Below, piece by piece: positions 31,124-31,530 of a stretch of DNA of 31,717 bases. Under the pieces are notes generated by a model that was not told where the DNA came from, made no database searches, and was given only the letters and a program-made list of their open reading frames with translations. This stretch comes from a virus. Location of the stretch: IMG/VR virus record IMGVR_UViG_3300037963_002609, positions 1-31,717 of that record. One strand, 5' to 3'. The stretch's first letter is position 1, and each line of letters begins with the position of its first letter. The position numbers were made by a program, and so were the translations under genes.

Positions 31124-31169
31124 GCTGACTGCAACCATCTGAACTAATCTTATTAGATTAGGTAAAACA
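31124..31169 (-). repeat. Dispersed hairpin element, copy C
   Basis: Third copy, at the 3' end of the structured RNA candidate. Minus strand: TGTTTTACCTAAT region with stem CTAATCT/AGATTAG (bases changed together relative to copies A and B), then GATGGTTGCAGTCAGCA and AAAAT. Confidence 0.7.
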
Positions 31170-31495
31170 AACTGGCGTCTATACGATGTTGGTCCAATCT
31201 TCCCCGGCCTAGCCGGAAGGTATAGAATCCTGCGTTGTTGGTCAATGCCTTCTCAGCGGATACTCTCCTTAGAGGTCACCAGTTGTTTGTATCGTAGGAC
31301 TTAGGTGAAACCCGTTCTAGGGCAACACTTTCCCGTATAGCTATCAGGCTGCCTAGGTGCTATACGCCTTATCCATCTTAATGTGCGGCTATGGTCGCCG
31401 GGACTTGCACCCGGTAGGTCGTCTTTTGAACTAATACCCACAGACTTGGATAATCATTCAACGGTCTGTAACGCCTAGGCAACTCTGCCCGCCAC
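31124..31495 (-). ncRNA. Large structured RNA candidate, about 370 nt
   Basis: No ORF is found here, and the GC content is above that of the genes around. From the promoter just upstream the RNA would begin GTGGCGGGCAGAG, whose GTG and CGG pair with CCGCAC at 31383-31388. Other pairings seen are ACAGAC/GTCTGT, CGTATAGC/GCTATACG with a loop that contains CCTAGG, TCTATAC/GTATAGA around a CTTC-CGGC-TAG-GCCG-GAAG hairpin, and CTAATCT/AGATTAG at the 3' end. Two loops carry the self-complementary CCTAGG, and AACTGG/CCAGTT with ATACGAT/GTATCGT would form a pseudoknot. I could not match it to RNase P, group I introns or a tRNA. Its 3' end is copy C of the dispersed hairpin element. Confidence 0.6.
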
Positions 31496-31501
31496 ATCAT
31501 C

Positions 31502-31530
31502 ATTCTACTATATAATATCGTCGTTGTCAA
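31502..31530 (-). promoter_or_regulatory. Promoter of the structured RNA
   Basis: -35 TTGACA (31525-31530), -10 TAGAAT (31502-31507), 17-bp spacer with GACGATA. The predicted start, 7 nt downstream, falls on the first base of the closing stem of the RNA. Confidence 0.75.

Follow-up and report, generated by a model that had tools for sequence, protein, structure and literature searches.

tRNA-like RNAs are known from the genome ends of plant RNA viruses and from tmRNA. In the tymovirus tRNA-like structure (TLS) the pseudoknot lies in the acceptor, and a tRNA-mimicking module is also part of the bacterial RNA YrlA (Y RNA-like). GOLLD and ROOL are described as ornate phage RNAs that often lie near tRNA islands (PMC12286853). 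The RNA that we discuss here is encoded in the window, by which we mean the whole stretch of 31,717 nucleotides that was analysed. It is a structured non-coding RNA of about 370 nt on the minus strand, from ~31496 to ~31124, and roughly its first third is a tRNA-like cloverleaf. We favor, with moderate confidence, the view that this RNA, which has its own promoter, belongs to a new family of tRNA-like RNAs in phages, most likely tRNA mimics that engage a tRNA-binding factor. What appears to be new is a family of such RNAs that is encoded by DNA phages, has a pseudoknot where the anticodon arm would be, and is shuffled as cassettes.

The window is an IMG/VR virus fragment and belongs to a large uncultured phage. 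Between 19945 and 23617, on the minus strand, it carries genes for a PSCyt1/PSCyt2/PSD1 protein (792 aa) and a DUF1501 protein (434 aa), neither of which matched a PHROG. Such a pair, typical of planctomycetes, is unusual for a phage, and because of this gene content the host is probably a planctomycete. The window also contains a normal-looking tmRNA (7862-8201) and a normal tRNA-Arg.

The initial annotation had proposed a structured RNA of ~370 nt, GC-rich, free of reading frames and without assignment to a family, and this description has held up. GC content is ~0.51 in the RNA stretch versus ~0.37 in the flanks. The longest overlapping open reading frame (59 aa) clips only the end of the RNA, and the longest one inside the stretch (50 aa) starts from a TTG in the promoter. 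No Rfam family matched the window RNA or its homologues, at curated or permissive thresholds, such that the RNA stays unassigned. The folding energy is unremarkable (z = -1.58), and the case for the RNA therefore rests on the comparison with relatives, in which both the helices of the 5′ domain and the 3′ part covary. As far as sequence can tell, this comparison confirms a real RNA gene on the minus strand.

Judging from its promoter, the RNA would be transcribed on its own. The -35 and -10 elements agree with the consensus at 11 of 12 positions and are separated by a 17-nt spacer. The annotation had the promoter aimed exactly where a closing stem begins, and indeed the expected start, ~7 nt past the -10 element at ~31495, falls next to the beginning of the stem at 31496, the CGATA motif being located in the spacer. 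The same geometry, with module A at the first transcribed base, is found in 9 of 10 homologues. CGATA occurs at varying positions in the 17-nt spacers of early-type promoters at many loci, including both promoters of Table 1. The second of these belongs to the next gene, a 144-aa reading frame listed as 30663-31097, whose probable start is an ATG near 31061.

Table 1. Features of the RNA locus and its surroundings (positions in the window)
Feature	Position	Strand	Sequence or evidence
Promoter of the ~370-nt RNA	31502..31530	-	TTGACA 31530-31525, TAGAAT 31507-31502
Module A, tRNA-like cloverleaf with pseudoknotted arm	31386..31496	-	ends GCCG; covariation
Acceptor stem, 5′ strand	31490..31496	-	UGUGGCG; covaries in 9 sequences
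Acceptor stem, 3′ strand	31390..31397	-	CG-a-CCAUA, one bulged base; covariation
D-arm-like hairpin	31478..31489	-	GGC AGAGUU GCC; GGC/GCC, AGC/GCU, GAA/UUC in relatives
P2a, 5′ strand	31470..31477	-	UAGGCGUU, pairs with 31415-31423 (GACGaCCUA); covariation
Pseudoknot, 5′ strand	31464..31468	-	CAGAC; four complementary variants across relatives
Pseudoknot, 3′ strand, in the loop of hairpin P2c	31441..31445	-	GUCUG; covariation
T-arm	31398..31414	-	CCGGG UGCAAGU CCCGG; CCGGG/CCCGG, CUGGG/CCCAG, UAGGG/CCCUA
Module B, hairpins H1 and H2	31295..31384	-	closing helix GGAU[AA]GG/CC[UAA]GUCC; alignment, covariation
Module C, long conserved hairpin (31175-31226 region)	31161..31290	-	closing helix ACUGG/CCAGU; covariation
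Element D (dispersed hairpin repeat, one copy)	31124..31163	-	..AGTCAGC..; ends the RNA ahead of the following promoter
Promoter of the next gene (144-aa ORF)	31080..31108	-	near-consensus

Homologous loci were located in IMG/VR through two neighbouring proteins and two DNA patterns. By identity to the window, the RNA homologues include L002 (82%) as well as L025 and L003 (~76%), and further ones were found at L007, L004, L005, L032, L096 and L092/L098. A BLASTN search of 50,697 phage records with the window RNA returned promoter-like fragments only, and an array of modules G and E (see below) gave no match in these records. The invariant part of module C was absent from GTDB genomes in an exact scan, and an exact 23-nt T-arm pattern had no match in viral contigs. 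The L098 phage has a DNA ligase in common with the window (76%), and no match to the DUF932 protein was found in its record. In the record of L007 (G006), the DNA ligase gene (174092-175419) is in several pieces with stops, which reflects either a pseudogene or assembly errors.

The main feature of the RNA is its first 111 nt, module A; neither this cloverleaf nor the modular build figured in the initial annotation. The helices of module A meet in a four-way junction without unpaired linkers, and minimum free energy folding of the module alone recovers the cloverleaf. The T-arm has 5 bp and a T-loop-like 7-nt loop (UGCRANY), and it is contiguous with the acceptor as in tRNA. Where the anticodon arm would be stands the arm P2, whose bulged strand is joined to the loop of its end hairpin by a pseudoknot. 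The possible pseudoknot mentioned in the annotation is thus well supported: across relatives it reads CAGAC/GUCUG, CCGGA/UUCGG, GUACC/GGUAC or AAGCC/GGCUU, always with five pairs. The remaining helices are likewise kept by two-sided changes, with rare single mismatches, in the nine distinct sequences compared. The helix table was arranged by hand and is therefore biased in favor of the structure; what gives it weight is that all four pseudoknot sequences pair although they are unrelated. Of 22 records searched with a covariance model of module A, 14 contain it, each in a single copy. We regard the tRNA-like structure of module A, as deduced from this comparison, as highly probable. NCC follows the acceptor in all ten copies of module A. 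However, since CCA is encoded by only one of the 147 true tRNAs of these phages (146 are without it), the CC behind the acceptor is no proof of a CCA end.

The two CCTAGG palindromes on which a kissing-loop assembly had been built are present at 31479-31474 and 31357-31352. The first of them lies outside any loop: half of it is in the D-arm-like hairpin, and it spans the 3′ strand of this arm and the next helix. The second does form the loop of hairpin H1, but most relatives have CATAGG, CCTTGG or CCTCGG at this place. With one palindrome inside two stems and the other variable, the kissing-loop reading was dropped.

Behind module A follow modules B and C. In module B, the hairpins H1 and H2 covary. 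Its closing helix reads UAUGG/CCUAAG in L092 and L096, which is the sequence of the 11-nt GAAA-tetraloop receptor; the window has UAAGG instead, and the likeness is therefore only suggestive. The closing helix of module C is reversed in L025, from CUGG/CCAG to CCAG/CUGG, and its long hairpin is nearly invariant, with a base that covaries from U-A to C-G. Modules B and C together, or B alone, were present in 9 of the 39 records searched, a tenth match being 17 bases long.

Element D is one copy of a repeat of ~60 nt, a hairpin CCTAATCC..GGATTTGG followed by AGTCAGC, which recurs all through these phages, both in intergenic positions and after tRNAs. Further minus-strand copies in the window lie near + coordinates 26744-26750 and 26531-26537, and many other loci carry it; AGTCAGC was recorded in 266 distinct contexts, of which a minority are chance occurrences. 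It may be a terminator, a processing site or a mobile repeat.

The composition of the RNA varies among relatives. L007 is without module C, the interior of module B differs in L004, a module E replaces B and C behind A in L005, and L032 has a small reading frame behind A. In L092/L098, the RNA starts right behind a stop codon, and the order is B and C, then A, then a structured module F. Modules are thus lost, replaced or reordered, and this comparison of loci establishes that the RNA is modular and that B and C behave as cassettes that pass from one phage to another.

In more distant members of the clade, a different cloverleaf is present, G, of ~135 nt with acceptor, D-arm, P2 and T-arm. In the loci examined, it lies ~1.3-2.4 kb upstream of the gene that corresponds to the 144-aa one. 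Its pseudoknot has the same topology as that of module A (AUAAGCC with the loop GGCUUAU of hairpin CAGCG/CGCUG). In 19 sequences of G, 96.3% of cells pair; shuffled controls reach 90.2%, and sliding the partners leaves 45.2% at most. Changes on both sides occur in 15 pairs versus 6.1 in shuffles. NCCA stands directly behind the aligned acceptor in 15 of the 19, and the model of G matches in 33 of 49 records. G was absent from all 8 A-bearing records searched with its model, and A from the G-bearing records searched with the model of A. As neither covariance model finds the other, the link between A and G consists of architecture, neighbourhood and mutual exclusion, and no sequence homology is claimed. 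G is often followed by module E via AAUACAA-like spacers, comparable to A followed by E in L005, and L070 has, by eye, a third cloverleaf variant.

In this context, several further RNAs of the clade may be mentioned. L131, L142, L039, L016 and L070 have tandem rows of structured modules (G, E and others) with AAUACAA-like spacers, in which Rfam matched tRNAs only. Directly before G, L016 (2958-3054, plus strand) and L132 (1995-2094, minus strand) have tRNA-like genes that measure 97-100 nt, are enlarged in the anticodon region and score near the Rfam tRNA threshold. Another structured RNA, S, of ~100 nt (GATATCAAA..GAGTATGG), has its own promoter upstream and element D behind it; it is found at L008 (~4825-4905), L009, L010, L011, L016, L017, L019, L046, L048, L049, L065 and L075, in front of the counterpart of the 144-aa gene in those loci that include it, and it had no Rfam match in the loci scanned. 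Finally, Pistol ribozymes (RF02679) lie just upstream of phage tRNA-Arg(TCT) on the plus strand in L008 (6400-6462), L019 (6340-6402) and L034 (771-833), where they may process tRNA 5′ ends; theta ribozymes beside phage tRNAs (PMC10879173) are a comparable setting.

How could such an RNA function? The combination of a tRNA-like half and a non-decoding arm points to a mimic acting outside normal decoding. A host or phage tRNA-binding factor, for instance a processing enzyme, a synthetase, EF-Tu or a tRNA-targeting defence enzyme, would grasp the acceptor/T-arm half, the pseudoknotted arm would prevent ordinary decoding, and modules B and C would add stability or a second contact. The single mechanism that we rate highest is a decoy for a tRNA-targeting host factor, i.e., an anti-defence function, and this we put forward tentatively. 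A somewhat more speculative extension is that this clade of large phages, probably infecting Planctomycetota, carries in its arrays of exchangeable modules a toolkit of tRNA mimics, possibly anti-defence decoys. The cloverleafs A and G as well as B, C, E, F and others, arranged like tRNA arrays, would then each engage a different tRNA-recognising host factor.

The main rival to an anti-defence decoy is a cap for processing or protection, in which the 5′ cloverleaf would shield the transcript and tRNA-processing enzymes would cut on its 3′ side, freeing B and C, or an mRNA in L032, as the working RNA. The position of A at the first transcribed base in most homologues would suit such a cap, as would the NCC behind the acceptor and the fact that A precedes a small reading frame in L032 and another structured module in L005. 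However, A is internal in L092/L098, behind B and C, and a mere cleavage signal needs no selected pseudoknotted arm, so that we consider a cap unlikely. A riboswitch-like leader that regulates the 144-aa gene in cis is less probable still: the RNA lies directly upstream of this gene with no clear intrinsic terminator in between, but a separate near-consensus promoter for the gene follows the RNA (31108-31080), other genes lie downstream in L002, L003 and L032, and in L092 the modules are found elsewhere.

That the cloverleaf has no function of its own and is an intron-bearing tRNA or the decayed remnant of a tRNA or tmRNA might be argued from its T-arm and from the expanded tRNA-like genes beside G in L016 and L132. 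We nevertheless deem this very improbable, because compensatory changes in every helix and in the pseudoknot would not persist under decay, and the phage has a separate tmRNA and tRNA-Arg of normal appearance. Hardly any weight, finally, can be given to a homo-oligomeric RNA of the GOLLD/ROOL kind that assembles through kissing loops, the idea raised in the initial annotation. Being large, ornate, phage-encoded and near a tRNA gene is a resemblance to these RNAs (PMC12286853), but the covariance models of GOLLD and ROOL did not match the RNA at E up to 10, the palindrome is either not conserved or not in a loop, and at ~370 nt the RNA is much smaller than GOLLD. The preferred reading thus remains that of a tRNA mimic, and module A (~110 nt) offers a defined, testable RNA with which to ask why ornate RNAs accompany the tRNA genes of large phages.

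Among known families, only four Rfam matches up to E = 10 were obtained on the window RNA, all far below threshold; the best one over module A is the tymovirus TLS (RF00233), with 16 bits where 40 are needed (E ~1). Module A was not called by ARAGORN or by the Rfam tRNA model RF00005, and the RNase P RNA model had no match to the RNA at E up to 10. A group I intron, considered for the GGGAAA and CCUAAG motifs, was rejected for lack of a model match at the same E. Rfam 15 contains no family of tRNA-like RNAs from DNA phages, shuffled as cassettes, in which a pseudoknot replaces the anticodon arm, and among the papers that searches of an open-access collection returned, none seemed to describe the RNA, going by title or abstract, which is weak evidence of novelty.

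With GOLLD and ROOL, the window RNA has only the setting in common, that of an ornate phage RNA near tRNA genes; it is smaller and has no conserved kissing palindrome. The YrlA model (RF02553) did not match the RNA, its sole weak match overlapping a true tRNA in L019. To tmRNA the likeness is greater, with tRNA-like ends, an elaborated P2 arm with a pseudoknot and residence in a phage, but module A has a D-stem, is only ~110 nt long, lacks a tag reading frame and does not match RF00023, the tmRNA of the phage being encoded elsewhere. Module A resembles tRNA and viral TLS in its cloverleaf, in the acceptor stacked on a T-arm of canonical dimensions, in the D-arm and in the NCC after the acceptor. 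It differs from tRNA in having the pseudoknotted arm instead of an anticodon arm with a 7-nt loop, no anticodon, no GG in the D-loop, and a T-loop that reads UGCRANY instead of UUCRANY, with G replacing U55. The bulge on the 3′ strand of the acceptor sets it apart from tRNA and viral TLS alike. Unlike in the tymovirus TLS, the pseudoknot of module A is not in the acceptor, and in contrast to the viral TLS, module A is encoded by a DNA phage and stands at the 5′ end of a longer RNA.
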